Shown here: positions 8,838 through 44,746 of the stretch, piece by piece
Layout: each line of letters opens with the position of its first letter
Numbering within the stretch: position 1 is the stretch's first letter
Assembly: GCA_017463985.1 (NCBI GenBank)
Contig: JAFUEH010000008.1
Location: 101,182 to 165,181 of the forward strand
Length of the DNA: 64,000 nt
DNA from: Eubacterium sp.
GTDB taxonomy: Bacteria; Bacillota; Clostridia; Oscillospirales; Acutalibacteraceae
Reading direction: 5' to 3'
Program-made: the position numbers and the translations under genes
The notes under the pieces: model-generated
What the model saw: only the letters and a program-made list of their open reading frames with translations
Database searches by the model: none
Told to the model about the DNA's origin: nothing

Positions 8838-9968
8838 TTATTTGAATTTATCAAAAAAGTTCTTTTTGCTGTTGCCGCTCTTAGGTGGCGTATAGCTTGC
8901 GTCAAACTGGCGGAGAATATTCTTTTGCTCACTTGTAAGCGATTTCGGTATATCGACCACGATGCGCACATACATATCGCCCTTACCGACGGCACGCACG
9001 CGCTGAATGCCCTTACCCTTCAAGCGGAATACTTCGCCGGGCTGCGTACCGGCAGGGATTGAATACTTAATATCCCCGTCCAGCGTCGGCACGCGAACCT
9101 CCGCACCGAGCGTCGCCTCGACAATGCTGACGTGCTTATTGTACAGCAGATCATAGCCGTCGCGCTCAAACTCCTTATGCGCCTTGACGTTCACAATCAC
9201 GTGCAGGTTACCGGCAGGACCACCGTTAGCGCCGGTGTCGCCCAGCCCTCTGATCACCACGGTCTCGCGGTTATCAATACCGGCAGGAATATCCACCTTC
9301 GTTTTATTGCGGATACGTACTTTGCCCTTGCCGCCGCACTTTTGGCACGGATGGTCAATGATTTTACCCTTGCCGCCGCAGCGTGTACACGGACGGGAGG
9401 TCATAAAGATACCCTGCCGTGAGGTAACCTGACCGGTGCCGTGACAGTCAGGACAGGTATGCACTGCACCGTCGGTGGAACCGGTTCCATGGCACTGTGA
9501 GCAATCCTCTACACGCGGCACTTCCACTGTCTTAGAGCAGCCCTTTGCTGCCTCCTCAAAGGTGATCGTCACCGTAGCCTGTATATCCCGTCCCTTACGC
9601 GGTGCGTTCGGATCGCGCGCGGTAGCACCGCCGAAGCCGCCGCCGAACACCTGTGAAAAGATGTCGCCCAGGTCAAAATCAGCGTCAAAACCGCCGAAGC
9701 CGCCTCCGTAACCGCCGGCACCGGCGCCGTAGTTCGGATCCACGCCGGCAAAGCCGAATTGGTCATAGCGCGCTTTCTTTTCGGCGTCGGACAGCACCTC
9801 ATAAGCCTCGTTGCACTCCTTGAACTTTGCCTCTGCCTCCGGATCGTCCGGATGCAGGTCAGGGTGATACTGGCGCGCCGCCTTACGGTATGCTTTTTTG
9901 ATTTCATCGTCCGAAGCGCCCTTGCTTACGCCGAGCACTTCATAGTAATCGCGTTTATTTTCAGCCAT
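8838..9968 (-). CDS. dnaJ: Chaperone protein DnaJ
   Basis: Co-chaperone that delivers unfolded substrates to DnaK and stimulates its ATPase. The J domain has HPD at residues 35-37. A Gly/Phe-rich linker follows (about 75-115), then four CxxCxGxG zinc-binding repeats (from CSQCHGTG to CQKCGGKG, about 150-210), then the C-terminal substrate-binding domain. At 376 residues it is full length for type I DnaJ. Last gene of hrcA-grpE-dnaK-dnaJ, about 100 bases after dnaK with a GC-rich hairpin between. An unusual Gly-rich FGG-repeat stretch is within the normal range for the linker. Confidence 0.98.
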
Positions 9969-10012
9969 AATAGCTCCAATGTTTCTGAATAAAATGTACT
10001 AATGCGCGGTAT

Positions 10013-10032
10013 CCCGCCGATCGCTCGGCGGG
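10013..10032 (-). other. GC-rich hairpin between dnaK and dnaJ
   Basis: An 8-bp perfect stem of G-C and A-T pairs (10013-10020 with 10025-10032) in the dnaK-dnaJ gap. No T run follows on the transcribed strand, so it is more likely an mRNA processing or stabilising structure that sets dnaK above dnaJ than a full terminator. This is inference. Confidence 0.45.
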
Positions 10033-10069
10033 GTACGCTCATTTTTAAAAGGGGAAAATAATGAAAAGC

Positions 10070-11902
10070 TTAGTTATCGTCTACATCATTGTAATCGGCA
10101 TCGGTATAGCCCTGGTCCGCCTGTGCGCCTTCAAACGGATTGCCCTGCGGTGCGCCCTGCTCGCCGCCGGCTGCCTGATAAAGCTTCTGCGATACCTCAT
10201 AGAACTTGTTGGTCAGATCCTCCTGCGCCGACTTCATCGCGTCAACATTGTCGCTTTCGATTGCAGACTTGAGGGCGGCCAACTTCGTTTCCAGTGCGGA
10301 CTTATCGTCAGAGGAGAACTTATCGCCGTTTTCGCTGAGCAGCTTTTCCGTTTCATAAACCATCTGATCGGCGCTGTTCTTCGCATCAACCGCTTCTTTT
10401 CTCTTCTTGTCCTCAGCAGCAAACTGCTCCGCCTCACGGACAGCCTTTTCGATATCGTCCTTGCTCATGTTGGAGGAAGCGGTGATCGAGATCTGCTGTT
10501 CCTTGCCGGTACCCTTATCCTTAGCGGATACGTGCACAATGCCGTTAGCGTCGATATCAAAGGTTACCTCGATCTGCGGCACACCTCTTCTTGCCGGCAT
10601 AATGCCATCCAGATGGAAGCGCCCCAGCGTCTTGTTGTCAGCGGCGAATTCTCTTTCGCCCTGCAGTACGTGTACCTCAACGCTGGTCTGATTGTCCGCA
10701 GCGGTGGAGAAGATCTGGCTCTTCTTCGTAGGAATTGTCGTGTTTCTTTCAATGATAACGGTGTTAACACCGCCCATTGTTTCAATACCGAGTGACAGCG
10801 GTGTTACGTCGAGCAGCAGCAGACCGTCGGTAATATCCTGGTTGAGCACACCACCCTGGATCGCAGCACCCATGGCTACGCACTCGTCTGGGTTAATGCC
10901 CTTGAACGGCTCTTTGCCAGAGAATTTCTTGATCGCATCCTGAACAGCCGGAATTCTGGTAGAACCGCCGACCAGCAGGATCTTGTCGATCTCGCTCATG
11001 GAGAGGCCGGAGTCGCTCATCGCCTGACGAACAGGACCCATTGTCTTTTCAACAAGGTCAGCCGTCATTTCGTTGAACTTCGCTCTGGTAAGCGTTGCCT
11101 CTAAGTGCTTCGGGCCGGTGGCGTCCGCGGTAATGAAGGGCAGTGAGATCTGTGCGGTAGTCATACCGGAAAGGTCGATTTTTGCCTTTTCAGCCGCTTC
11201 TTTAATACGCTGCATAGCCATCTTGTCGCCGGAAAGATCGATACCGTTAGAGGCCTTAAAATCAGCTACCAACCAGTTCATGATCTTTTCATCGAAGTCG
11301 TCACCGCCAAGACGGTTGTTACCGGCTGTGGCAAGTACCTCCTGTACGCCGTCGCCCATCTCGATGATCGAGACATCGAAGGTACCGCCGCCAAGGTCGT
11401 ATACCATGACCTTTTGGTCGTCTTCCTTGTCAATACCGAAGGCAAGCGCAGCCGCTGTCGGCTCGTTGATAATTCTCTTAACGTCAAGGCCTGCGATCCT
11501 ACCGGCATCCTTGGTAGCCTGACGCTGTGCGTCGGTGAAGTAAGCAGGAACGGTGATGACCGCCTCTCTTACCGGCTCGCCAAGATAAGCCTCTGCGTCG
11601 CTCTTCAGCTTTTGCAGAATGATCGAGCTGATCTCCTGCGGCGTGTAAGCCTTACCGTCAATGTTGACCTTGTAGTCAGAACCCATGTGACGCTTGATGG
11701 AAGCGATCGTCTTATCCGGATTGGTGATAGCCTGACGCTTTGCTACCGCGCCGACCATTCTTTCGCCATCCTTGGTGAACGCGACAACAGACGGTGTCGT
11801 TCTGGCGCCCTCTGCATTCGCGATGATCACCGGCTCGCCGCCCTCAATAACGGACACACAGCTGTTTGTTGTACCTAAATCAATACCAATAATCTTAGAC
11901 AT
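10070..11902 (-). CDS. dnaK: Chaperone protein DnaK (Hsp70)
   Basis: ATP-driven chaperone. The N-terminal nucleotide-binding domain starts with [10 protein letters not shown] and has the Hsp70 signatures [11 protein letters not shown] and [11 protein letters not shown]. The interdomain linker region [15 protein letters not shown], the substrate-binding domain and the helical lid end in an acidic Asp-rich tail ([10 protein letters not shown]). The 610-residue length is typical of Firmicutes DnaK. It lies 52 bases after grpE and is transcribed with it from the CIRCE-controlled promoter at 13568. No separate promoter was recognised. Confidence 0.99.
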
Positions 11903-11954
11903 AATCTTTATCTCCTTTGTCAGTTAGTTTTATATTATTATGTGCGGTTTTGCA

Positions 11955-12479
11955 CTAATTTGCCGTTTTTACCATGGCCGGTCTGACGACGCGGTCACCG
12001 ACCTTATAGCCCTTTTGGAAAACATCGGTGATGATATTTTCCTCCAGCGACTCATCCTCGATGTGCATAACAGCATTATGCAGGTTCGGGTCAAAGGTGT
12101 CGCCGGGCTCGCCGTATTGCTCCACACCGAGCTTATCCAGCGCCGCCATCAGGCCGGTCATTGTCATTTCTACACCCTTTTTCAGTGCTTCGTAATCAGA
12201 GTCCGCACTGAGCGCGCGCTCCAGGTTATCGATCACCGGCAGTATCTCTGCAATAACAGTACCCTTAGCGTTGGTAAAGGTCAGTTCCTTTTCCTTCGCA
12301 CTTCTTGCACGGTAGTTTGCATATTCCGCCGCGGTGCGCAGCAGCTTTTCCTTTGTGTCAGCCAGCTCCGCAGCTACCGGATCCGTTTCCTCCGTTACCG
12401 CTTCTTCCTGAGCGGCGGCTGTCGCCTCCTGCTCCTGCGGCCGTTCCTTTTCCGGTGTTGGTTCTTGCTTCTTACTCAT
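11955..12479 (-). CDS. grpE: Nucleotide exchange factor GrpE
   Basis: Promotes ADP release from DnaK. The 174-residue protein has an acidic, low-complexity Glu/Ala-rich N-terminal region (about 1-45), then the long dimerisation helix (AELADTKEKLLRTAAEYANY) and the C-terminal beta domain containing NLHNAVMHIED near the family signature. It overlaps the end of hrcA by 8 bases, so translation is probably coupled. Its place between hrcA and dnaK is the canonical order. Confidence 0.98.
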   Translation of the reverse strand: MSKKQEPTPEKERPQEQEATAAAQEEAVTEETDPVAAELADTKEKLLRTAAEYANYRARSAKEKELTFTNAKGTVIAEILPVIDNLERALSADSDYEALKKGVEMTMTGLMAALDKLGVEQYGEPGDTFDPNLHNAVMHIEDESLEENIITDVFQKGYKVGDRVVRPAMVKTAN

Positions 12480-13509
12480 ATTTCAATCCGCCTTCCTTCA
12501 GCAGCATTGCTGTAACTTTCATAATATAATCTACCCGCGGCAGCACATTTTTATAGTCGATCCGCAGTGAGCCAAGACAGCCCAGTGTAGCAAGCTGTGT
12601 GCCGTTATAGCGGAAACGGGCGATCGCCGTCACGGTGTTTTTCAGCTCATAGACCGGATTTTCGTCTCCGATAAAGAGGGCTGAGCTGACATTCGCTTTT
12701 GCAAAATCATTGAGCAGCCCCTCCAGCTTCTTCTTACGCGCCAGCAGCACCAGCAGGCTGTAAGCATCCTGCCCCAGCTCCGACTGCGACAGCAGCTTTG
12801 TTTCGCCTTCAATGACCAGCGTTCCCTCGCTTGCCTCCATACACAGTGAGCACAGCGTTGACAGGAGCGGCAGCATTTCAAATATGCGTTCGCCCAGCGC
12901 GCCGGCAGTAGACTGCAGCAGGGACAGGTTAATATCGCTGAGCGGCACTCCGATAAAATATTGCCGCGCCAGCTCATAAAATACGCGCTTAAATTCGCCG
13001 TCCACCGTACAGTTGAGCCGGCAGACAGAGGACTTGATCTTGCCGCCGACCGACAGCATCACCAGCATGACCTTGCCGTTACCGGTGGGGATCAGCTCAA
13101 CGCCCTGCACACAGTCATACGGGTCCTTTACGGTGGAGTAGAAGGCCGCACAGCCGGTCACCTCTGACAGCAAACGGGCAGCGTCCGCCAAAAGCCGTTC
13201 CGGATCAGACGCATTCACGGACAGGCGCTCATTGATCTGTTCGCGTTCATAAGGGCTGAGCTTGGCCGCCTGCAGCAGGTTGTCAACATAGTAGCGGTAA
13301 GCCGCCTTCGTCGGTACCCTGCCGCCGCTGGTGTGGCGTTGTTCCAAATAGCCGACGCTTGTCAAATACGCCATTTCGTTCCTGACCGTCGCGGAGCTGA
13401 TGGTATAAGGGAGCATCATGCACAGGTTTTTGGAGCCGAGCGGCTCGCCGGTTTTGATATAATAATCGGTTATCAAACCCAGAATAGCCGAACGTCTTTC
13501 GCCTAGCAT
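12472..13509 (-). CDS. hrcA: Heat-inducible transcription repressor HrcA
   Basis: Represses class I heat-shock genes by binding CIRCE; its folding depends on GroEL, which gives feedback. The 345-residue protein has the N-terminal winged helix (MLGERRSAILGLITDYY, TISSATVRNEMAYL, and the wing EQRHTSGGRVPT), then the GAF-like domain and the inserted dimerisation domain. The start ATG follows AGGGAGGAG. A perfect CIRCE lies 22 bases upstream, so the operon is autoregulated. No groESL is present in the window. Confidence 0.98.
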   Translation of the reverse strand: MLGERRSAILGLITDYYIKTGEPLGSKNLCMMLPYTISSATVRNEMAYLTSVGYLEQRHTSGGRVPTKAAYRYYVDNLLQAAKLSPYEREQINERLSVNASDPERLLADAARLLSEVTGCAAFYSTVKDPYDCVQGVELIPTGNGKVMLVMLSVGGKIKSSVCRLNCTVDGEFKRVFYELARQYFIGVPLSDINLSLLQSTAGALGERIFEMLPLLSTLCSLCMEASEGTLVIEGETKLLSQSELGQDAYSLLVLLARKKKLEGLLNDFAKANVSSALFIGDENPVYELKNTVTAIARFRYNGTQLATLGCLGSLRIDYKNVLPRVDYIMKVTAMLLKEGGLKYE

Positions 13510-13530
13510 CTTAACTCCTCCCTTTGCGTT

Positions 13531-13557
13531 TTAGCACTCTAACCTGCCGAGTGCTAA
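13531..13557 (-). promoter_or_regulatory. CIRCE operator (HrcA binding site)
   Basis: A perfect inverted repeat TTAGCACTC-N9-GAGTGCTAA with arms at 13531-13539 and 13549-13557, identical to the CIRCE consensus. It lies between the promoter at 13568 and the hrcA start. Confidence 0.98.
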
Positions 13558-13567
13558 CTCTATTTGT

Positions 13568-13596
13568 ATATTATATCCATTTTCCTGTTTTGTCAA
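13568..13596 (-). promoter_or_regulatory. Sigma-A promoter of the hrcA operon
   Basis: On the minus strand TTGACA (13596-13591), then overlapping -10 candidates TATAAT (15-base spacer) or TAATAT (17-base spacer, 13573-13568). The CIRCE starts about 11 bases downstream, over the probable start site. Confidence 0.85.
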
Positions 13597-13621
13597 TAGT
13601 TTTTTGCAAAATTTACAAAAA

Positions 13622-13656
13622 AGAAAAAATCCGACTGTTACAAATACAGTCGGATT
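13622..13656 (-). terminator. Terminator of the FAD oxidoreductase gene
   Basis: A 10-bp perfect stem, 13629-13638 with 13646-13655; on the minus strand it is followed by a T-rich tract (A-rich at 13615-13628 on plus). It lies 20 bases after the stop of the gene at 13676. Confidence 0.9.
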
Positions 13657-13675
13657 AGCACTTACGAGTACAAAA

Positions 13676-14986
13676 TTATAGCGACCGATAGGCCTTGATC
13701 CACTTATCGACCTTCTTTTCGTCATACTGCTCCGGTATGCTGCCACACACAGCAGGCAGCAGCGGCAATGTTTTCAGGCAGGCAGCGACAGAGGGGATAT
13801 GCTTAATGAACTTTGGCAATGACGTCACCAACCGCTTCACATAGTCCGGCGTGATGTTCGGTGCTTTGCCGTCCGGAATTGCCAGCATATCGGCATTCAG
13901 AATTCCCTTTTCCATCAGGTAATCCACGGCTTCGCCGTTGATATAGGTAAACACGGTCTTGATCACATCGATCAGCACCAGATCCTTACCGAGCTGCGTA
14001 AAATAGCGGTATTCATAAGGCCACAGCTTTGCGCGCGTATAGTCGCCGTCGGCCTCCTTCACAGCGTCCGCCAAAAGCTTACCGGCGTTCATGCTGAGGA
14101 TAATGCCGCTGCCATTGAGCGGTACCGTCATACCGGCGCTGTCACCGATCGCAGCGTAACCGTCCGCCACGAGCATCGGCAGCATCCGCGTGATCGGAAT
14201 ATCCTCAAAGCTGCCGCCCCTGACGATTTCCTCGCCAATGAACGGAAAATCCGCACGGAAGGACGCCAGCGCGGCGTCTACCTCCTCCTGCGTCAGCGCG
14301 CCGGACTGGCTGAATTTGCCGACCAGAATGTCTACATAGTCCTTTTTTGTGATCACCCAGTCAATGCCCGGTCGGTATTCATGAAACGCATGAATGGAAT
14401 AGGACGGTGTGTTGATGGTGCCGTCCAGATTTTTAAAATAGGCGCGATAAACGTGGAAAACGCTGCGCTTGTTAATTTCGTTATCAATGCCAAACACGGC
14501 CGGCAGCCGGCTGCGCAGCGGCGAATACATGCCGGCACTATCGACGATCAGGTCGGCCTTGATCAGACTCAAGTGACCCTTGCGCTTGGCGATCACACCC
14601 GTAACGGCACGGCCCTCCGTATACGGCGCCAGCAGCGTTGTCTCAAAGCGCAGCTCTGCACCGGCCTCCTCCGCTAACGTGAGCAGATAACGGATCAGCT
14701 CTTTGCGGTCCATCATGATCGAATCCTCGCGGTGCGGCATCACGACCTCCACCGTGCCGCGCGGATTGTGAAAGCTCTGATCCTCCGCCGTGTAGATCAT
14801 CTCTGCCGGCGGCTGCGGCAGATCAGCGCCGTCAAACGCTGACAGATCCAGCCAATCATGCCAGTCATGGCCCATTTCCTCGCGCTTTTTACGCTCCAAG
14901 ACTGTTACGTCATATCCTGCCTTAGCCAGGTGGTACGCTGCCACCAGTCCGCCGTGACCGGCGCCAGCAATCAAAATCTTTTTCAT
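13676..14986 (-). CDS. FAD-dependent oxidoreductase, geranylgeranyl-reductase-like
   Basis: A 436-residue flavoprotein. The FAD-binding Rossmann motif GAGHGGLVAA is at residues 7-16, ending in a Glu-bearing strand (VLERKK), and a second FAD contact, AAIGDSAGMTVPLNGSG, is near residue 290. This arrangement belongs to the group that includes geranylgeranyl reductases, halogenases and PHBH-like enzymes. The substrate cannot be told. The C-terminal third is helical with two proline-rich segments and no obvious membrane anchor. It is monocistronic, divergent from the EEP-family gene, with a TTATAAT -10 box near 15030. Confidence 0.75.
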   Translation of the reverse strand: MKKILIAGAGHGGLVAAYHLAKAGYDVTVLERKKREEMGHDWHDWLDLSAFDGADLPQPPAEMIYTAEDQSFHNPRGTVEVVMPHREDSIMMDRKELIRYLLTLAEEAGAELRFETTLLAPYTEGRAVTGVIAKRKGHLSLIKADLIVDSAGMYSPLRSRLPAVFGIDNEINKRSVFHVYRAYFKNLDGTINTPSYSIHAFHEYRPGIDWVITKKDYVDILVGKFSQSGALTQEEVDAALASFRADFPFIGEEIVRGGSFEDIPITRMLPMLVADGYAAIGDSAGMTVPLNGSGIILSMNAGKLLADAVKEADGDYTRAKLWPYEYRYFTQLGKDLVLIDVIKTVFTYINGEAVDYLMEKGILNADMLAIPDGKAPNITPDYVKRLVTSLPKFIKHIPSVAACLKTLPLLPAVCGSIPEQYDEKKVDKWIKAYRSL

Positions 14987-15104
14987 AACGTCACGTCACC
15001 CTTCTTAGATTTATTAGACAATAGTATTATAACGCACGCCCGTTTCTTTGTCAATGCTCGAAAAGTGTCAGACTGTTGCCGACTGCGTCGTCACCGGTCA
15101 CAAG

Positions 15105-15133
15105 TTGACAATTCCGGTGGGTAACGATATAAT
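15105..15133 (+). promoter_or_regulatory. Consensus sigma-A promoter
   Basis: Perfect TTGACA (15105-15110), 17-base spacer, perfect TATAAT (15128-15133), 20 bases before the ATG at 15154. The transcript leader would be very short. Confidence 0.85.
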
Positions 15134-15153
15134 GAGCACAGGGAGATGATCAA

Positions 15154-16050
15154 ATGAAAAAGACGCTGCTTGTGCTCGGCTGCCTGCTATTGGCGGCGAT
15201 CCTGACCGTCAGTGTGCTGAACCTGGCTTATTATCCGGCCTATCGCAACGCCAACGACCGTTACGAAGGCGACGCCGCTACGACAGAGAGCATCACCGTT
15301 ATGAGCGCTAACGTGCGCACCTGGAGCCCGACGGATGTGCTGAAAAAGAGTTGGTTCTACCGCGCGCCGCTGGTGCTGCAAAATATTGAAGCGGTACAGC
15401 CGGACATCCTTGGCTTTCAGGAGGTCACCAAAATGCACTACCGCTACCTCACTGACGCACTGCCGGACTATGACAGTGTGCTGGAATACCGCGACAATAG
15501 CCCCTTTTCCGAAGCCTGTCCGGTATTTTACCGCACAGATCGCTTTGACCTGAATGAAAAGGGCTCGTTTTGGCTCAGCGAAACGCCGGAGGAAATGAGC
15601 AAGGACTGGGGCGCAGCCTGCTACCGTATCTGTTCTTATGTCATTTTAACAGAAAAGGAAACCGGCAAGCAGCTAGTGGTGTTCAACACCCATCTTGACC
15701 ATATCAGCGACGAAGCGCGTATCAACGGCATTCAGGTGGTACTGGATAAAATCGCAGCGTTCGGCGGTCTGCCGAGCATTATCATGGGCGATTTTAATGC
15801 CGAGGAGGACAGCGAAACCTATCGCGCAGCGACCGAAAATTTTTATGACGCAAAGTATCAGACAGAAAACACCGCCTCCGGCGCTACCTATCAGAATTGG
15901 GGCAAGGCGCTTGACCGTGAAAACATCGACTATTTTATGATCTCTAAAGAGGGCATTGCGGTCGAGCAGTACCGTATTATTGACACCACCTACGACGGCG
16001 TATATCCCAGCGATCACTTCCCGATTGCCGTAACCGTCACTTTAACTTAG
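15154..16050 (+). CDS. Exported endonuclease/exonuclease/phosphatase family protein
   Basis: A 298-residue member of the EEP superfamily (DNase I/exonuclease III/inositol phosphatase fold). The N-terminal hydrophobic segment (KTLLVLGCLLLAAILTVSV, residues 3-21) is a signal anchor or signal peptide. Catalytic motifs: MSANVRTW (Asn), GFQEVT (metal-binding Glu), NTHLDH (His, Asp), GDFNAEE (Asp, Asn), and YPSDHFPI (Asp-His). The substrate may be nucleic acid, phospholipid or a phosphoester; it cannot be chosen from sequence. Neighbouring minus-strand genes are glycerophosphodiesterases, so a phosphodiester function at the cell surface is plausible but inferred. Confidence 0.88.
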   Translation: MKKTLLVLGCLLLAAILTVSVLNLAYYPAYRNANDRYEGDAATTESITVMSANVRTWSPTDVLKKSWFYRAPLVLQNIEAVQPDILGFQEVTKMHYRYLTDALPDYDSVLEYRDNSPFSEACPVFYRTDRFDLNEKGSFWLSETPEEMSKDWGAACYRICSYVILTEKETGKQLVVFNTHLDHISDEARINGIQVVLDKIAAFGGLPSIIMGDFNAEEDSETYRAATENFYDAKYQTENTASGATYQNWGKALDRENIDYFMISKEGIAVEQYRIIDTTYDGVYPSDHFPIAVTVTLT

Positions 16051-37517: not shown

Positions 37518-38597
37518 ATGGGTATTTTTAAAGCAGCAACCGGCGCGCTCGGCGGCACCCTTGCGGATCAATGGCTGGAAATGTTTTACTGCGACAGTAT
37601 GCCGCAGGACGTGCTGGCGCAGCGCGGCGTCAAGCGCGTCAGCGCGAGCACCGCTAACACGAAGGGCGATGAAAACGTCATCAGCGACGGCTCGCTGATC
37701 ACCGTCAACGAAGGACAATGCGCCCTTGTGGTGGAGCTGGGCAAGGTACTTGCTGTCTATACCGAGGCGGGCGAAAACACCTTCCACAGTAAAAAATCAG
37801 GCAGCCTCTTTTCCGGCGGCGGATTAGGCGGTGTCGGCCGTCAGATATCAGAGCGTATCAGCTTTGGCGGCGACGTAGCGATTCATCAGTTTGTGATGTA
37901 TCTTGACATGAAGGAGCACCACGGCAATCCGTTTTCTGTTGCCGTACCGCTTTCCGTGAGCGATCCGCGCACCGGCCTTGACTATTGCGCTACGGTAAAC
38001 ATGAACGGCGTCTTTTCCTATCGCATTACCGATCCGGCCGTGTTCTATAAGAACATCTGCGGCAACCGCACCGGCACTGTTTATAAAAGCGAGGTGCAGC
38101 CCCAACTGGAGGCGGAGCTAAAAAGCGCTGCCGCGGTAGCACTGAACCGGCTCTGCGGCGGCGGCGTCAGACCAACGGAGCTGTCGGGCAGCACTGACGC
38201 TATCACCCAGGCCATACAGGAGACCATGACGGAGCAATGGGCTCGTCTGCGCGGCTTTACCGTCACCGCTGTCGCCATTGGCGCGGTCGCCTTACGCCCC
38301 GAGGATCTCGCGGTGCTCCAATCTGCACAGCGGGCCGAAATGCTGACCGACCCGTCCATGGCCGCCGCTACCCTCATTACAGCACAGGCGGATGCAACGA
38401 CTGCCGCTGCGCAAAACCAAAGCGGTGCCGGTATATACGGTATAGCAGCCGTGCAAAGCACCACTGCACAGTCTGTCAAGCCGACGAATATCTTTCTGCA
38501 GAAGGATACGACCGGTCCGTCACTTTGGCGCTGCCCGTGCGGCAGCATGAACACCGGCAATTTCTGCGAAAACTGCGGCACCCGTCGGCCAAATTAG
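37518..38597 (+). CDS. SPFH-domain protein with C-terminal zinc ribbon
   Basis: A 359-residue soluble protein. It resembles the group annotated as virion core protein or SPFH domain: an N-terminal SPFH/band-7-like region (about 20-250) with VNEGQCALVVELGKV, and a C-terminal double CxxC ribbon (CPCGSMNTGNFCENCG). Between them is an Ala/Gln/Thr-rich helical stretch. The start follows TTTGAGGAGTAAAAT. SPFH proteins form membrane-associated oligomers; here no membrane segment is seen. It lies just upstream of the repeat-protein promoter and may be functionally linked to it, but this is inference. Confidence 0.85.
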   Translation: MGIFKAATGALGGTLADQWLEMFYCDSMPQDVLAQRGVKRVSASTANTKGDENVISDGSLITVNEGQCALVVELGKVLAVYTEAGENTFHSKKSGSLFSGGGLGGVGRQISERISFGGDVAIHQFVMYLDMKEHHGNPFSVAVPLSVSDPRTGLDYCATVNMNGVFSYRITDPAVFYKNICGNRTGTVYKSEVQPQLEAELKSAAAVALNRLCGGGVRPTELSGSTDAITQAIQETMTEQWARLRGFTVTAVAIGAVALRPEDLAVLQSAQRAEMLTDPSMAAATLITAQADATTAAAQNQSGAGIYGIAAVQSTTAQSVKPTNIFLQKDTTGPSLWRCPCGSMNTGNFCENCGTRRPN

Positions 38598-38631: not shown

Positions 38632-38661
38632 TTGACACCGTTTTATACACTATGCTATAAT
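38632..38661 (+). promoter_or_regulatory. Consensus sigma-A promoter for the repeat protein
   Basis: Perfect TTGACA (38632-38637), 18-base spacer, perfect TATAAT (38656-38661). The start codon ATG 38712 follows about 50 bases later with AAAGG as ribosome site. Predicts strong expression. Confidence 0.85.
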
Positions 38662-38711: not shown

Positions 38712-39014
38712 ATGGGATACAGCGAAGGCTCCGGCAGCAGCGGCGGCGGCAACAACAGCGGCGGCTACAGCAGCAGAGACAGCTACGGCGGCTACTACAA
38801 CTCTAACTCCGGTTATACCAGCAAGGACAGCTACGGCGGTTATTACAACTCCACCTACGGCTACACGGCTGCAGACAGCTACGGCGGCTACTATTCCAAC
38901 GGTTCCGGATACACCAGCAAGGACAGCTACGGCGGCTACTATAATTCCAACACCGGTTACACCTCGCCGGACAGCTACGGCGGCTATTACAACAGCGGCG
39001 GCAGCGGCAAATAG
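38712..39014 (+). CDS. Gly/Tyr/Ser-rich tandem-repeat protein
   Basis: A 100-residue protein composed of Gly, Ser, Tyr, Asn and Thr with almost no hydrophobic aliphatic residues. ATG 38712 is preferred over ATG 38703 because AAAGG is 9 bases upstream of it. After a 21-residue Gly/Ser-rich head come five repeats of a 16-residue unit with core DSYGGYYN and tail GYTS. There is no signal peptide, Cys, or leader cleavage motif. Composition resembles the G/S-Y-G/S low-complexity domains that phase-separate, and also tyrosine-rich structural proteins. It is followed by a terminator and then by the ACP/radical SAM operon. I do not recognise the family. Confidence 0.8.
   Translation: MGYSEGSGSSGGGNNSGGYSSRDSYGGYYNSNSGYTSKDSYGGYYNSTYGYTAADSYGGYYSNGSGYTSKDSYGGYYNSNTGYTSPDSYGGYYNSGGSGK
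38775..39011 (+). repeat. Five 48-bp tandem repeats within the Gly/Tyr-rich gene
   Basis: Units begin at 38775, 38823, 38871, 38919 and 38967; each encodes x-D-S-Y-G-G-Y-Y followed by eight variable residues ending GYT. Conservation is highest over GACAGCTACGGCGGCTA. The in-frame 48-bp period means unit number can change without frameshift. Confidence 0.93.
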
Positions 39015-39100: not shown

Positions 39101-39141
39101 CCTCTGGGAATTACAAAGGTTTATTCTCAGAGGCTATTTTT
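39101..39141 (+). terminator. Intrinsic terminator/attenuator before the ACP operon
   Basis: A stem CCTCTG-GAAT with one mismatch (39101-39110 paired with 39123-39133), followed by T-rich 39136-39141. It lies 87 bases after the repeat-protein stop and 15 before the ACP start. Probably limits readthrough into the operon; no separate promoter was recognised for the ACP gene. Confidence 0.75.
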
Positions 39142-39155
39142 ATAAAGGGACTACC

Positions 39156-39380
39156 ATGACTTATGAAAGATTACAGGCAATGATTGCCGCAGCAGCCGAC
39201 ATCGATCCGGCCACCGTCAGCCGGCAGGCGCGCTTGCGCGAGGAGCTGGGCCTGTGCTCCGTTGACATGATGCTGTTGGCATCGGCACTGGCCGCGGAAT
39301 ACGGCGACGCCGCTGCACAGCTCACCCCCTCTATGACGGTGGAGGAAATACTATCTGTGCTGGGAGAAGAAAATGGCTAA
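39156..39380 (+). CDS. Acyl carrier protein-like protein
   Basis: A 74-residue carrier protein. The four-helix ACP pattern is visible, with the phosphopantetheine-bearing Ser35 in LGLCSVDMMLL; the residue before it is Cys instead of the usual Asp. The C-terminal helix begins MTVEEILSVL. AAAGGGA is the ribosome site. It overlaps the radical SAM gene by 8 bases. It is not the fatty-acid ACP, because it stands apart from any fab gene and is joined to a ligase and modifying enzymes; it probably carries a specialised acyl or amino acyl group. Confidence 0.87.
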   Translation: MTYERLQAMIAAAADIDPATVSRQARLREELGLCSVDMMLLASALAAEYGDAAAQLTPSMTVEEILSVLGEENG

Positions 39381-40419
39381 TATTATGGTGACGGATGTTT
39401 GCAACCTGCACTGTCCTTACTGCTTTGCAAACGAATTTGTCAATAAAAGTAAAAATGAAATTTCCTTGGAAGCTTTTCAGAAGGCTGTGGATTTTATCGT
39501 GAGGGACAACGCCCACAAAACCGTCGGCATCATCGGCGGCGAGCCGACTGTCCATTCTCAGTTTGAGCTGCTGATGCAGACGCTGATCAAGGATACCCGC
39601 GTGGAGCGCGTAATGCTCTACACCAACGGTGTGCTGCTCGACAGATTTTGGGACGTATGCTGCCACGCCAAGGTCGCGATGCTGATCAACTGTAACGCAC
39701 CTTCCTTTATCGGTGACAAGGCCTACCAACGCACCGTGGAGAACCTCGACACGCTGTTTAACCAAAAGCTGTGCCGCGAGCGCGTCACACTGGGCATCAA
39801 CCTGTATCAGCCCGATTTTCAGTATGACTATATGATCGAGCTGCTGGAGCGCTATGACCTGCACAAGGTGCGCGTATCCGTCACCGTGCCCAATATGGAT
39901 GACCAGCGCAACATCAACGCGCACGCATACTTTTTATCCATGAAGCCGCAGCTGCTGGCGTTTTTCCACGCGCTGCTGAGTCGGGATATTATCCCCCATT
40001 TTGACTGTAACAAGATCCCCTCCTGCCTGCTGACAGAGGAGGAGCTGCGCGGCTTTGACCGATACCTTCAAAGCGACTATATCAAGGCGCATATCGGCGA
40101 CAGCAACATTGCAGACACACGCGTGGTCTGCTCTCCCGTCGTGGACATCCGTCAGGACCTGACCGCTGTCCGCTGCTTTGGTCTGTCCGACAGCACAAAG
40201 CAGCCGATCGAGGCCTTTCACGATCTCACCGAGCTGGAAAAATTCTATACCGGCACGGTCGACGCCTTTGCTTATAACACCGTTTATGCGAAGGCGTGTA
40301 CCGACTGTCACCTGCGCAAGGTATTAAAATGCACCGGCGGCTGTCTTGCTTTTAAAATTAATGCGATCAATGCGCTGCAGCAGGCGGCGCAGCGGAAAAT
40401 GGAGGCCGTCAATGACTGA
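39373..40419 (+). CDS. Radical SAM protein with C-terminal auxiliary-cluster cysteines
   Basis: A 348-residue radical SAM enzyme. The CxxxCxxC motif is at Cys10, Cys14 and Cys17 (VCNLHCPYC), very close to the N-terminus, and GGEPTVH near residue 57 is the SAM-binding GGE. The C-terminus has Cys309, Cys312, Cys320 and Cys324 in ACTDCHLRKVLKCTGGCLA, plus earlier Cys, which resembles a SPASM or Twitch auxiliary-cluster domain. Such enzymes modify peptides or carrier-bound substrates. The start overlaps the ACP gene, the end overlaps the acetyltransferase gene by 8 bases. Confidence 0.88.
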   Translation: MANIMVTDVCNLHCPYCFANEFVNKSKNEISLEAFQKAVDFIVRDNAHKTVGIIGGEPTVHSQFELLMQTLIKDTRVERVMLYTNGVLLDRFWDVCCHAKVAMLINCNAPSFIGDKAYQRTVENLDTLFNQKLCRERVTLGINLYQPDFQYDYMIELLERYDLHKVRVSVTVPNMDDQRNINAHAYFLSMKPQLLAFFHALLSRDIIPHFDCNKIPSCLLTEEELRGFDRYLQSDYIKAHIGDSNIADTRVVCSPVVDIRQDLTAVRCFGLSDSTKQPIEAFHDLTELEKFYTGTVDAFAYNTVYAKACTDCHLRKVLKCTGGCLAFKINAINALQQAAQRKMEAVND

Positions 40420-40963
40420 ACATTTCGGCATGAAACCGTCCGTAAGTCTGGAGCCTCTCTGCTGGGAGAAGGATCTGGCGGCGCTGTACCGTTATATGAC
40501 AACGGAGGAGCAATACCTGTTTTCCACCAAGGTGCTTCACCTCTCGCCGCAGCGGTTTGAGGAGTGGCTGGCGGCCAAGCTGGACAGCGATTTTCACGAT
40601 TTTTACATGGTCAGAGGTACTGACGGCACGACGGTAGGCTATGTACACAATTACGGCTTTTCGACCGTCAATCGCCACTGCAAGCTGGTCACCTATATCG
40701 TACCGGAGCAGCGGCAATACGGGCTCGGTGCACAGGCAACCGTGCTGTTTATGGACAACCTGTTTCGCCGCTATCCGCTCGAGAAGCTCTATTCCACGGT
40801 ATATGCTTACAACGAGGAAAGCCTGCAGTGCAATCGCCGTGCCGGCTTTGTTTACGAAGGCACACTGAAGGATTTTCGCTATTATGACGGCAAGCACTGG
40901 CCGCTGGCGTATTTTTCGATTACCCGTGAGCAGTTTTATCACCGATTCGGGAGGTTTTTGTAA
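40412..40963 (+). CDS. GNAT family N-acetyltransferase (first)
   Basis: A 183-residue acetyltransferase-fold protein. The acetyl-CoA pyrophosphate-binding region is QRQYGLGAQATVLFMDNLF, and YAYNEESLQCNRRAGFVYEG is the RimI/RimJ-like C-terminal motif. ATG 40412 overlaps the radical SAM stop, with GGAGG 7 bases upstream. It may acylate an amine on the carrier-bound product or a peptide. A second, weaker GNAT lies at 42810. Confidence 0.85.
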   Translation: MTEHFGMKPSVSLEPLCWEKDLAALYRYMTTEEQYLFSTKVLHLSPQRFEEWLAAKLDSDFHDFYMVRGTDGTTVGYVHNYGFSTVNRHCKLVTYIVPEQRQYGLGAQATVLFMDNLFRRYPLEKLYSTVYAYNEESLQCNRRAGFVYEGTLKDFRYYDGKHWPLAYFSITREQFYHRFGRFL

Positions 40964-41863
40964 TTGGATACTTGTCTGAATGTATGCGATCTGCTGGCGG
41001 TATCTGCTGACACAGAGGCTATCGCAGACAGCATAGCGCAGCTGGCAGAGGCGGCCGGCTGTCCGCTGCCCTGCCGTGTGTATCTCGGTTCCTATTTTTG
41101 CGCCGGCTATTTCTTAAAGCTCCGGCGAACGGTCCTGGCAGCCGTGCTGCAGCAATGCCGCTGCGTTTCCGGCGTCACACTAGTGGTTCCGGTGTTCACA
41201 CAAAAGGATCTGGCGGCCGGTAAGCGCGCCGTCACAGCGCTCGCCGATGCGTTGGGCGATCGGCTTGACGAGATCACCGTCAACGATATCGGTATGCTGC
41301 AAACCGTCAAGGCTCTCTGTCCGCAGCTGACCGTCAACCTCGGCCGCTTGTTTTTTAAAGACCCGCGCGACGTCCGCTTGTCGGAAGCCTTGGCGCGCGT
41401 AACGATTCCTGCGCAGCTGACGGACGAAACCTTTCGGGCATGGCGTGACGACGCACTGCCTGCCGAACGGGAAAACGGCTTAGTAGAGCTGGATCCCGTC
41501 AGCGCACAAATTTCCGTACCGGAGGGCTTTCGCGGCCGGATCTGTCTGCACACCCCATACTGCTATATGTCCTACGGTCATATCTGCAAGTTCGCCTCGT
41601 TGCACAAGCCGCCGTCGAAGAAGTTCCGTCCGAACGCGCCGTGTAACGCCGAATGTCTCCGTATCCACGAGCGCTTTTCCGATCCGAACAAGCCGGAATG
41701 GGGTACGCTGCTGAAAATCGGACGGGCGCTGTATTTTGAACAGCCGGACGCGGTTCTGACCGACGCAACGCCGCAGCGGCTGATTTATTTTCCGTTCCGG
41801 GAATGGATAATGTTAAAAGAAGGAAACAACAAAAGCGATGAAAATATTAACGCCGTTAAATGA
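40964..41863 (+). CDS. U32 family protein, UbiV-like
   Basis: A 299-residue protein starting at TTG 40964, directly after the GNAT stop with GGAGGT 8 bases upstream; no ATG fits. The C-terminal half has the U32 cysteine signature (YCYMSYGHICKFASLHKP, then APCNAEC), expected to bind a 4Fe-4S cluster. Members once called peptidases include UbiU/UbiV, TrhP and RlhA, which carry out oxygen-independent hydroxylations. It overlaps the next U32 gene by 26 bases, so the two proteins probably work together. Confidence 0.82.
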   Translation: MDTCLNVCDLLAVSADTEAIADSIAQLAEAAGCPLPCRVYLGSYFCAGYFLKLRRTVLAAVLQQCRCVSGVTLVVPVFTQKDLAAGKRAVTALADALGDRLDEITVNDIGMLQTVKALCPQLTVNLGRLFFKDPRDVRLSEALARVTIPAQLTDETFRAWRDDALPAERENGLVELDPVSAQISVPEGFRGRICLHTPYCYMSYGHICKFASLHKPPSKKFRPNAPCNAECLRIHERFSDPNKPEWGTLLKIGRALYFEQPDAVLTDATPQRLIYFPFREWIMLKEGNNKSDENINAVK

Positions 41864-42797
41864 TGTAAGCCTGCTGGCAGATTACAGCCGTCTCGGTGCA
41901 GAGGAATTTTATCTGGGCTTTTACGACGAGACATGGCAGGCGCGCTTTGGCAAGCTGGCGGATATTAACCGGATGACCGGTTTCGGCAAGCTGGCCAACC
42001 GCAACAGCTTTGAAGAGGCCGTTGCTGCCGTCCGTCAGATCAAGGACGCCGACAAGAGCGCCTTTATTACGTTGAACGCTAACTGCTACAGCGCAGCGCA
42101 GCGCGCCTATCTGCGCGAGCACTATCTTCCTGTACTACGCGAAGCAGGGGCTGACGGCGTCATCGTGTCGGATCTGCCGACAGCACTGACCGTTGCGCAA
42201 GGCGGCTTAGAGCCGGTAGCCAGTACTATGTGCGCGATTTATAACAGCGATATTGCCAATGAATATAAACAGGCCGGCATTCGCCGGATGATTCTTCCGC
42301 GCGACCTTTCGCTGGCGGAAATTGAAAGCATTATTGCCGCCTGTCCCGACGTCAGCTATGAGGTATTCTTTATGCGCAACGGCTGTATCTATGCCGACAG
42401 CTACTGTCTGGGGATGCACCGACCGGAGCTAGGCGCTACGTGTGCCTTTACCCGTTTTAAAAACATTGAAGCGCGCAGTGAATTCACCGGCTTTGCCGAC
42501 GCGCACGACGAGGACGTCAACAACCTGCTGTATAACACGATGTTCCATCACGAGGCGTGTGCGATGTGCGCCCTCTACCGGCTGCTGCACATCGGTGTTA
42601 CCTCGCTGAAAATCGTCGGACGGGCGGACGACACAGAGGGCATCCGGCGCGACATCAGCCTGACGGCGGAAAACCTGGCGATTGCCGCGGAATGCCGCAG
42701 TGAGCAGGAATACCTTGATCGGATGCAGTTTGCTGAAAACTGTCCGCAAAAATGCCGCTTTGGCTTTTCCTGCTATTATCCCGAGGTCCGATTTTAA
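41838..42797 (+). CDS. U32 family protein, UbiU-like
   Basis: A 319-residue protein of the same family as the preceding one. The N-terminal TIM-barrel strand SRLGAEEFYLGF is the usual U32 start. The cluster region has GCIYADSYCLGMHRPELG with Cys, then ATCAF, EACAMCAL and NCPQKCRFGFSC. The order of two adjacent, overlapping U32 genes mirrors the UbiU-UbiV heterodimer, in which both halves hold FeS clusters. The substrate is unknown here. A GNAT gene follows after 12 bases. Confidence 0.86.
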   Translation: MKILTPLNDVSLLADYSRLGAEEFYLGFYDETWQARFGKLADINRMTGFGKLANRNSFEEAVAAVRQIKDADKSAFITLNANCYSAAQRAYLREHYLPVLREAGADGVIVSDLPTALTVAQGGLEPVASTMCAIYNSDIANEYKQAGIRRMILPRDLSLAEIESIIAACPDVSYEVFFMRNGCIYADSYCLGMHRPELGATCAFTRFKNIEARSEFTGFADAHDEDVNNLLYNTMFHHEACAMCALYRLLHIGVTSLKIVGRADDTEGIRRDISLTAENLAIAAECRSEQEYLDRMQFAENCPQKCRFGFSCYYPEVRF

Positions 42798-42809
42798 GAG
42801 GTATCCTAC

Positions 42810-43307
42810 ATGAAGCTACAACTCAGACGTTTTTTACAACCGGACGCTGCACTGCTGTATCAGATCACGCGCGACAGCATACAGCTCGGTGATACGGAAA
42901 ACAAAATATATGTTAACAGCGACCGTGAGTTTTTCGGTCGGCTGGCAGCCGATCTGCAGCACTTTTACCACGATTTTTTTGTCATCGAGTCCGCAGACAG
43001 CGATATGCCGACGGTGCTGGGCTATGTCTATTCCTACGATTATCGCCCCAACGACCGCCACTGTCAGCTGGCGGTACGCATGAACGGCACGACGCTCGTT
43101 ACCGAGGCGGTCAACGCCTTCACCGCGTACCTTTTCCGGGAATATCCGCTGATAAAGGTCTTTGTGCAGGTGACTGACCCTACGTTGCTCCCCTGCCTCA
43201 CGGCCGCCGGCTTTGCAGCGGAGCTCACCTTAAAGGACTACTGCTATGAAAACGGCCGCGCTGTCGATATGACGGTGCTGAGCCGTTATGCTAAGGAAAC
43301 GCTATGA
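42810..43307 (+). CDS. GNAT-like acetyltransferase (second)
   Basis: A 165-residue protein with GNAT-like secondary-structure order: LLYQITRDS, a VLGYVYSYDYRPNDRH strand pair and LPCLTAAGFAAEL at the C-terminal motif. The acetyl-CoA loop R/Q-x-x-G-x-G/A is not clear, so activity is doubtful; it may be degenerate or bind a different acyl-CoA. It resembles the GNAT at 40412 in overall layout, a likely paralogue. AGAGGT precedes ATG 42810. Its stop overlaps the ligase start by ATGA. Confidence 0.72.
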   Translation: MKLQLRRFLQPDAALLYQITRDSIQLGDTENKIYVNSDREFFGRLAADLQHFYHDFFVIESADSDMPTVLGYVYSYDYRPNDRHCQLAVRMNGTTLVTEAVNAFTAYLFREYPLIKVFVQVTDPTLLPCLTAAGFAAELTLKDYCYENGRAVDMTVLSRYAKETL

Positions 43308-44689
43308 CCAACTATCCGCTTTATCCGGTGGACGCCTGTGCCGACACCGCTGCCTATTTGGCTACGCTGCGAGCAAAGCACGCTGACCGTATTGCCTTTG
43401 AAACCGTTGATACAAACTGGACCTACCGGCAGCTGACGGACAGCGTTGCGCACTGCGCGGCTGCCCTTGCCGATCGGCAGCAGCAGCGCCTTCGCATTCA
43501 GACAGACCACCCTTTTTACTTTGCCGTTGCTTTTTTTGCAGTACTGTTATCCGGCAATATTGCCGTACTGTGCGACGTTCCGACAGCTGCAACACTGGAC
43601 GAACCAACGCTGCTTCGTCTGTTGAACCAAACCGTCAGCGAACCTGCTGCACCAGCGTGCGGAGATCCGAATGCGCCTGCGGTCATCGTCGGCAGCTCCG
43701 GCACCACATCCGTAGCTAAAGCAGTCGTGCTGTCACAAGCCAATCTGTACAGCGATATGGCGGCGGTGATGGCCACGCTGGAATATAAACAAACCGCACG
43801 CTATCTGAACGTGATTCCGTTCAGCCATCTGTTCGGCGTTGTGGGAGCAATCATGATTCCGCTCTATGCCGGCAGCACCGTTTGCTTCGGCAAAAGCAAG
43901 TATACCTTTTTTGAGGACCTGAAACGCTTTCGCCCGACCATGCTGAACCTGCCGCCGCAGCTTTGCAGCCGCCTGCATCAGCTGATTGCAGCCGCAGGAG
44001 AGGCTGACGCAGTTACCGGCGGAAGGCTGGAAAAAATCATCTGCGGCGGCGCACAGGCAGACGACAGCCTCAATAATCTATTTGCGCAATACGGCATCCG
44101 GATGTACGCCACCTACGGGCTGACAGAATGCGCACCTTGCATCAGCGTTAACCGCGATCGGTATTATAAAATCGGCAGCGGCGGTGTCGTCATTCCCTGC
44201 TGCGAGGTCCGGATTGACAACGGAGAGATCGCCGTGCGCGGCAGTAATGTGATGCTCGGTTATCTGGACGATCCGGCAGCCACGGCGCGCGTCCTTCGCG
44301 ACGGCTGGCTTTACACAGGCGACCTGGGATATCTTGACGACGATGGCTTTTTGTTCGTCACCGGCAGGAAGAGCAATATACTGGTGCTGTCCTCCGGCAA
44401 AAAGGTGATCCCCGAGCAGGTGGAGGCGGTGCTGAGCCGGCTTCCCTGCGTAAAGGAGTGTCTGGTGCGCGCCTGCAATGACCGCGGCGACGTTGCCGCC
44501 GAGCTGGTATGTGTACCGAACGGATCGGCGGCTGCGGCTGAATCGCAGCTACGGCAAGCCCTTAACCGACACGGTTATGATTTTATTCGCCGTCTGACCT
44601 TTACAGACAGCCTGCCAAAAAGCAGTCTCGGCAAGGTGCTGCGCACGCCGCGTTCAACAGCCGAAAAAACGCTCGCTGATACGGAATAA
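43304..44689 (+). CDS. AMP-forming acyl ligase (ANL superfamily)
   Basis: Activates a carboxylic acid as acyl-AMP and loads it on CoA or a carrier. The 461-residue protein has the core motifs SSGTTSVAKAV (P-loop), YGLTEC (A5), YTGDLGYLDDDG (A7), TGRKSN and the catalytic Lys in PKSSLGKVLR near the C-terminus. The N-terminal domain is shorter than in fatty acyl-CoA ligases. Last gene of the ACP operon; a natural partner of the ACP at 39156. Ends before a terminator at 44710. Confidence 0.93.
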   Translation: MTNYPLYPVDACADTAAYLATLRAKHADRIAFETVDTNWTYRQLTDSVAHCAAALADRQQQRLRIQTDHPFYFAVAFFAVLLSGNIAVLCDVPTAATLDEPTLLRLLNQTVSEPAAPACGDPNAPAVIVGSSGTTSVAKAVVLSQANLYSDMAAVMATLEYKQTARYLNVIPFSHLFGVVGAIMIPLYAGSTVCFGKSKYTFFEDLKRFRPTMLNLPPQLCSRLHQLIAAAGEADAVTGGRLEKIICGGAQADDSLNNLFAQYGIRMYATYGLTECAPCISVNRDRYYKIGSGGVVIPCCEVRIDNGEIAVRGSNVMLGYLDDPAATARVLRDGWLYTGDLGYLDDDGFLFVTGRKSNILVLSSGKKVIPEQVEAVLSRLPCVKECLVRACNDRGDVAAELVCVPNGSAAAAESQLRQALNRHGYDFIRRLTFTDSLPKSSLGKVLRTPRSTAEKTLADTE

Positions 44690-44709
44690 CAAGACACAAA
44701 CGTTCTCGG

Positions 44710-44746
44710 GCAAGAAGCCGCTTTGGTTTCTTGCTTTTATTTTTAT
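44710..44746 (+). terminator. Terminator of the ACP/radical SAM operon
   Basis: A 7-bp stem GCAAGAA (44710-44716) with TTCTTGC (44728-44734), followed by a long T-rich tract. Confidence 0.8.

Follow-up and report, generated by a model that had tools for sequence, protein, structure and literature searches.

A tyrosine-rich repeat protein gene heads a radical SAM, U32 and acyl carrier protein operon in Eubacterium sp.: a candidate leaderless, RiPP-like modification system

In the Tvg and H(Y)NR radical S-adenosylmethionine (SAM) clusters, genes for a radical SAM enzyme and for an Fe/alpha-ketoglutarate-dependent oxidase accompany that of a ribosomal precursor of repeated motifs, TVGG or Tyr-Asn-Arg/His-Asn-Arg; repeat-by-repeat modification has been demonstrated for the Tvg precursor, and Aro-Xaa-Asn motifs are noted for strained cyclophanes (PMC9062424). 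In biphenomycin-type ortho-tyrosine (o-Tyr) formation, aromatic hydroxylation of a ribosomal peptide by a multinuclear non-heme iron-dependent oxidative enzyme (MNIO) is followed by C-C cross-linking by a B12 radical SAM enzyme (PMC12257519). U32 enzymes hydroxylate rings independently of O2, with prephenate as the oxygen source in ubiquinone synthesis, where the adjacent U32-type iron-sulfur (FeS) proteins UbiU, which has four conserved Cys, and UbiV are described (PMC10470549, PMC11574389); the reaction mechanism is described as open (PMC11574389). Here we describe an eight-gene operon in a 64,000-nucleotide stretch of Eubacterium sp. contig JAFUEH010000008.1 (the window, whose numbering is used unless another locus is named) that resembles each of these systems in part. 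We consider it reasonably probable, though well short of certain, that the operon is a system like those of ribosomally synthesized and post-translationally modified peptides (RiPPs), in which the FeS enzymes act on a Tyr-rich repeat protein rather than on a molecule bound to the acyl carrier protein (ACP), and in which the ACP module serves for acylation.

The first-pass annotation of this DNA had described a seven-gene operon. Its seven open reading frames (ORFs) lie on the + strand, tightly packed and with the junctions it gave, and its view of one coordinated operon holds, the order recurring in two other loci. The unit nevertheless has eight genes, gene 1 (38712..39014), which precedes the seven enzyme genes, having been overlooked. 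Gene 1 encodes a leaderless Tyr-rich repeat protein of 100 residues, the candidate substrate, and is followed on the same strand by genes for the ACP (39156..39380), a radical SAM enzyme (39373..40419), GNAT1 (40412..40963), U32a (40964..41863, with a TTG start), U32b (41838..42797), GNAT2 (42810..43307) and an AMP-forming carboxylic-acid ligase (43304..44689). In a Pfam scan the radical SAM enzyme matched PF04055 (1.3e-14), GNAT1 PF13420 (1.1e-10), U32b PF01136 (3.6e-29) and the ligase PF00501 (4.2e-45); the radical and FeS chemistry and the acyl ligase proposed earlier are supported. The ACP falls below the Pfam cut-off (PF00550, 19.2 vs 20.8 bits); the modified motif that had been noted in it is present as GLCSVDMM, with the presumed phosphopantetheine Ser. 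Of the two GNATs proposed, GNAT1 stands and GNAT2, recognisable like the ACP despite its sub-threshold score, has a weak match (PF13302, 0.0029, 18.7 vs 25.4 bits). Two of the three proposed FeS-enzyme genes are supported; U32a, for which neither Pfam nor NCBIfam gave a match at E<=1, joins them by its Cys layout only, leaving U32b as the sole U32 gene of the pair with a Pfam U32 match. Among the NCBIfam matches listed, no operon protein reaches a family cut-off (radical SAM enzyme best 25 of 69, ligase best 25). As had been stated, no ketosynthase or condensation domain occurs among the Pfam matches of the seven genes, and no described pathway with this gene set was found in the open-access literature, covered in its top-ranked part where result lists were long.

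With the Tvg and H(Y)NR clusters the operon shares a ribosomal repeated-motif precursor beside genes for a radical SAM enzyme and a candidate oxidase, but no U32, ACP, ligase or GNAT is described for those clusters in the available text (PMC9062424). With the biphenomycin type it would share aromatic hydroxylation and radical SAM cross-linking of a ribosomal product; the enzymes differ, and carrier protein, ligase and GNAT are unnamed in the available part of its description (PMC12257519). The layout of U32a and U32b recalls the adjacent UbiU-UbiV pair (PMC10470549, PMC11574389), from which the operon differs in its reversed order (a before b), in having no UbiT homologue among the operon's Pfam matches and in a substrate that is probably protein. 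We find the locus best filed as a repeat-protein (RiPP-like, leaderless) modification system, not as a UbiUV member.

A scan of genome contigs with the U32b profile gave 10 loci; L013 is the contig of G037 (L011) and was counted once, and L022, L029 and L044 all refer back to the window itself. The first-pass annotation had named a neighbourhood unique to the strain as evidence against itself. The neighbourhood does recur: the radical SAM, GNAT1, U32a, U32b, ligase and ACP genes occur together in four loci besides the window (L012-L015, with source labels Lachnospiraceae, goat rumen, 'Lapin' and sheep rumen), and these with the window are called the full-set loci. All seven enzyme genes occur in identical order in L012 and L013, whereas L014 and L015 carry the set without GNAT2 and in a different order, so that GNAT2 is found in three of the five (window, L012, L013). 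The ACP of L015 (7952-8170, GINSLKMM) was identified by eye, the automatic comparison having missed it. Because the gene set is conserved in other contigs, chance co-occurrence is unlikely.

The gene 1 protein has five repeats with a period of 16 residues, built of DSYGGYYNSNSGYTSK / DSYGGYYNS units, and contains 22% Tyr and no Cys. Its ORF is open from 38703; the start at 38712 was picked since relatives begin MGYS, MSYD, MSDS or MGDS. In each of the five full-set loci the enzyme genes are immediately preceded by a gene for a five-unit Tyr-rich protein, present as two tandem copies in L014, and the unit differs from locus to locus (DSYGGYYNS, DYSYGGTYN, YYNSYNNTTYGYG, YYNSYYNTTYSPGGG, YYNSYYNTTYYSDG). 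Among 497 ORFs of 70-300 aa (209,897 bp, 11 sources), five have at least 18% Tyr and all five are such repeat proteins; the L012 protein narrowly misses the threshold, since the extension of its ORF brings it to 17.6%. Over 100 codons, gene 1 and its L013 counterpart show 40 identical, 44 synonymous and 16 non-synonymous codons, and the proportions of synonymous and non-synonymous differences (pS 0.80, pN 0.16) indicate that the repeat protein is under purifying selection. Units compared within single proteins gave pS 0.50-0.85 and pN 0.15-0.20 (four proteins tested). The idea that gene 1 is unrelated to the genes next to it and shares the promoter by accident, to which the 141 bp and the terminator-like hairpin between it and the ACP gene could be taken to point, is close to refuted: its position is kept in five of five loci, with two copies in one, and of 200 family genomes two had the repeat protein, the window's own and G037, both known operon holders.

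Gene 1 would yield an abundant protein, from a consensus promoter. A predicted extended sigma70-type promoter, TTGACA-18-TATAAT with TG before the -10 element (38632..38661, +), matches consensus at 12/12 positions and is the sole 12/12 site between 37400 and 45000, an interval in which promoter-like sites in total are near chance (9 found vs 5.1 expected in shuffles). In the other full-set loci the best match ahead of the repeat gene scores 12/12 with TG in L013, 11/12 in L015, 10/12 in L012 and 9/12 in L014, and the pattern scan listed no + strand promoter between the window's repeat and ACP genes. Behind gene 1 lies a hairpin followed by CUAUUUUUAUA (39101..39133, +), which we interpret as an attenuator separating gene 1 from the enzyme genes and which probably lets only some transcripts reach the latter. 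The 55-nt hairpin stretch has a folding energy of -16.3 kcal/mol (z -3.63) and is absent from the pattern-scan list; in L015 a strong hairpin with a T-run stands between the repeat and radical SAM genes (z -3.44). An intrinsic-terminator-like site 19 bp after the ligase stop (44708..44736, +; 13-pair stem and T-run) has the longest stem of the 11 terminator-like sites found, a number near chance (9.5 in shuffles). The transcription-signal matches, like gene content, conservation, repeat architecture and selection on the repeat protein, are established by sequence.

Directly upstream of this unit the window encodes an SPFH/Band 7 protein (Pfam) with a putative C-terminal zinc ribbon (37518-38597), and an SPFH-like zinc-ribbon gene was seen by eye downstream of the L015 operon (11697-12782). 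At about 45000, just beyond the operon, GC content drops from about 0.55 to 0.43-0.50 and GC skew becomes distinctly positive.

The role of the repeat protein as the enzymes' substrate, and every chemical step set out below, are inferred; the likely chemistry comprises O2-independent tyrosine hydroxylation, radical cross-linking and acylation, and the mature protein may serve as an adhesive, an envelope or storage protein, or a signal. The U32 pair, if UbiU/UbiV-like, would hydroxylate repeat tyrosines without O2, probably toward 3,4-dihydroxyphenylalanine (DOPA). In the case of U32b, the Cys set C183-x6-C190-x11-C202-x38-C241 is invariant in 9 rows, and that of E. coli UbiU is C169-x6-C176-x16-C193-x38-C232. 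In the alignment the first three of the four Cys coincide (C183, C190 and C202 with C169, C176 and C193), and U32b has the UbiU spacing to the fourth. These four UbiU Cys we take to be its cluster ligands. The CX6CX15CX3C pattern of other U32 oxidases is not present in U32b and is found in the own-genome U32 protein of L010. The Cys spacing, unlike the score, thus points U32b to the UbiU type, at 16-21% identity to the E. coli sequences. Because it lies far under the NCBIfam cut-offs (TrhP 47.6 of 534, UbiU 42.6 of 440), U32b is neither TrhP nor UbiU itself.

U32a has C46, C208, C227 and C231 in 14/14 rows, and these align with C39, C180, C193 and C197 of UbiV, presumably the UbiV cluster ligands, in an alignment of 14-20% identity that is possibly forced. 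U32a adjoins a U32b-like gene in the 14 cases compared. Its predicted structure appears to be a (beta-alpha)8 TIM barrel, at moderate confidence, with which Foldseek gave no match at E<=0.001, and the family is unproven by sequence profile; hhalign of U32a against U32b returned probabilities of 1.2 and 3.2%. Because profile tests do not link U32a to UbiV, its pairing with U32b as UbiV/UbiU-like is an argument from layout. Prephenate would be the likely oxygen donor. The L014 operon (9962-15880) continues with a GT9 glycosyltransferase, with ADP-heptose-type genes (HldE-, GmhB-, HldD- and GmhA-like), names that are our reading of Pfam matches, and with 3-deoxy-D-arabino-heptulosonate 7-phosphate (DAHP) synthase, the first enzyme toward prephenate. 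Its presence is consistent with, and only suggestive of, demand for a prephenate-like shikimate compound or an aromatic acid. Upstream in L014 is also a short NusG-like ORF (3707-3997).

The radical SAM enzyme carries the CX3CX2C motif together with a SPASM-like set of C-terminal auxiliary-cluster Cys, as SPASM peptide maturases do: C10, C14, C17, C212, C218, C253, C268, C309, C312 and C324 are invariant in 10/10 rows and C320 nearly so. Pfam yields radical SAM only, with no SPASM model. This enzyme would oxidise or cross-link tyrosine, possibly to the Asn two residues on. Aro-Xaa-Asn exceeds its frequency in shuffles (p<0.05) in seven of eight repeat proteins (5 vs 2.0 in the window, 9 vs 3.2 in L015, 21 vs 5.9 in L036, a partial-set locus described below), counts that the repeats themselves inflate; Aro-Asn and Aro-x4-Asn are likewise enriched in several. 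As a universal motif Aro-Xaa-Asn was rejected, the L012 protein having 0.

The ligase, ACP and GNAT1 probably acylate the repeat protein: the ligase would load a carboxylic acid onto the ACP and GNAT1 would move the acyl group from the ACP to the protein. In GNATs the RxxGxG loop binds the pyrophosphate of CoA or pantetheine. GNAT1 keeps a loop of this type (QYGLGA), and GNAT2 is a degenerate GNAT without it. The ligase has conserved SSGT and YGLTEC/YGLSEC motifs and an invariant K444 in its C-terminal GK. The 11 solved sequences that match it at E<=1e-40 comprise luciferases together with OSB-, 4-coumarate-, oxalyl- and fatty-acyl-CoA ligases (OSB, o-succinylbenzoate), and by eye it presumably lacks the amine-binding Asp. 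It thus resembles acid-activating rather than amino-acid-activating enzymes, and the amino acyl product suggested in the first-pass annotation is not favoured, since the best-scoring solved relatives activate plain carboxylic acids. HlyC-type protein acyltransferases, which have a GNAT-like fold, depend on ACP and pass its acyl group to a protein. The operon may resemble them in outline; it differs in having a dedicated ACP and ligase.

The same genes could instead make a free small molecule, as the earlier annotation supposed, with the repeat protein serving as scaffold, binding or immunity protein. ACP, ligase and GNATs would form a plausible acyl-amine pathway, and the closest solved GNATs acetylate polyamines. 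We regard this as improbable: the repeat architecture, five Tyr-rich units of changing motif, tracks the enzymes across loci as a substrate would, and no exporter is found among the Pfam matches of the eight genes.

Partial-set relatives bear on where the FeS enzymes act. Five loci from three genomes of one genus (L036-L040) hold a radical SAM relative, a different U32 protein (PF01136 at 5.8e-10 in L036, the one tested), a SPASM-type radical SAM enzyme (by eye) and a Tyr/Asn/Trp repeat protein (YSNYSNYSNY); the operon's ACP, ligase, GNATs and U32 pair have no homologue there at E<0.05. This repeat protein has a hydrophobic N-terminus. L016-L018 carry the U32 pair. In L016 (9001-11489) a repeat protein rich in Gly, Pro and Met (GGYGGGNYGG, PPMGGPQGG) comes next, then a flavoprotein (PF02441), with no homologue of the remaining operon genes beside the pair; the L018 contig holds just the start of a Gly-rich repeat protein and L017 ends before it. 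L019 (6976-17493; Flavonifractor An10) combines a radical SAM relative and the U32 pair with two more radical SAM enzymes, a YcaO protein and a putative B12-type radical SAM enzyme (by eye). Radical SAM or U32-pair relatives thus adjoin repeat proteins or YcaO at loci where ACP, ligase and GNATs have no homologues. This suggests a link between the FeS enzymes and ribosomal products, makes the ACP module seem optional outside the full-set loci, and renders the repeat protein the likelier target of these enzymes. The proposed assembly of a product on the carrier is for the same reason not favoured. In such carrier-bound chemistry, the ligase would load an aromatic or acyl acid onto the ACP, the U32 pair and radical SAM enzyme would hydroxylate or oxidise the bound acid, and the product would then pass by way of the GNATs to a repeat protein that is only the acceptor. 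We hold this to be unlikely, though it is the most serious competitor. In its favour, ACP, ligase, GNAT1, radical SAM enzyme and U32 pair co-occur in five of five full-set loci, the ligase's relatives include aryl- and OSB-CoA ligases, and the target of UbiUV is the benzene ring in a small molecule (PMC11574389, PMC10470549).

Among other relatives, L041 (3004-14542) has a radical SAM relative, a Tyr/His/Cys repeat protein, three more radical SAM genes and a subtilase-like gene, and adjoins contractile phage-tail-like genes (by eye). More distant U32 pairs or matches (L020-L021 and the UbiU/UbiV-like L023-L028) were excluded from member counts. Of the four read (L023, L024, L026, L027), L024 adjoins a gene resembling non-ribosomal peptide synthetases and L023 and L026 adjoin radical SAM genes (by eye). 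L007 was discarded as a chance match (E 9.1e-4, three stops).

Several observations weigh against modification of the repeat protein as we propose it. No U32 enzyme is known to take a peptide as its substrate. The profile containing U32b scores 61.0 bits against E. coli UbiU and 61.9 bits against an own-genome U32 protein of the CX6CX15CX3C type, so the score does not favour UbiU, and the best NCBIfam match of U32b is the tRNA enzyme TrhP (47.6 bits), ahead of UbiU (42.6). U32a gave profile matches to UbiV/UbiU of just 1.5 and 7.7 bits (2.2 and 2.6 with a 14-row profile). ACP, ligase and GNAT1 are kept in five of five full-set loci, hence not accessory there. Although a ribosomal precursor is encoded beside modifying enzymes, as in RiPP pathways, no leader was seen in the gene 1 protein, nor, by eye, any secretion signal; the first repeat starts after 8-22 residues (window, L012, L014, L015). 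At E<=1 neither Pfam nor the NCBIfam matches listed show a RiPP recognition element (RRE) domain or a maturation peptidase for the operon proteins, the sole peptidase match being the U32 family's own name. Classical RiPP logic is therefore absent, which is why we write RiPP-like rather than RiPP. Lys as a general acylation site was rejected, the L015 repeat protein being without any Lys; the acceptor could be the N-terminus, Ser/Thr/Tyr or hydroxylated Tyr. The hairpin with a U-run is found in two of five full-set loci only (window, L015): in L014 the hairpin behind the repeat gene has no T-run (z -2.22), and in L012 and L013 the pattern scan, which misses the window hairpin too, lists nothing terminator-like in the interval from the repeat gene to the ACP gene. 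L019 yielded no repeat protein. In L046 the radical SAM relative lies among M16-peptidase-like genes (by eye), with neither a U32 match nor a Tyr-repeat protein. About 0.5-3 kb downstream in L038 and L039 are a lysine-aminomutase-like radical SAM gene and a GNAT-like gene (by eye), probably a separate unit, the latter with no homology to the operon GNATs at E<0.05. Our interpretation is weakened slightly, and the carrier-bound alternative strengthened slightly, because the U32b score cannot separate UbiU from other U32 enzymes and because of the limited spread of the hairpin.

The distribution of the operon is rare and patchy. In genome samples that overlap between scans, U32a was found in 3 of 300 family genomes (the window's own, G037 and one weak match with stops) and in 0 of four listed congeners, in 1 of 394 genomes at order level (its own) and in 7 of 391 at class level (its own and 6 more distant). 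The radical SAM profile at 1e-50 found 5 of 398 phylum genomes and 2 of 291 class genomes, own genome counted. A plasmid search with U32b gave no match at 1e-20. In the viral collection the U32a profile confirmed 0 of 119 candidate stretches and the radical SAM profile 1 of 77, a 29% relative (L047) whose surroundings hold short frames and no Tyr-rich repeat ORF.

More tentatively, and with doubt, the operon could build, strictly without O2, a structural protein of tyrosine repeats that bears DOPA or catechol and is both cross-linked and acylated, with the U32 pair acting on protein tyrosine and the dedicated ACP giving the acyl group. If so, an anaerobe would have its own equivalent of mussel-type or silk-like proteins, and an ACP-ligase-GNAT module would join radical SAM chemistry in a ribosomal pathway. 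U32 hydroxylases would then act on protein side chains, giving enzymatic tyrosine hydroxylation without oxygen, and a clean substrate of 100 aa, with five repeats and no Cys, would make the U32 reaction directly testable.

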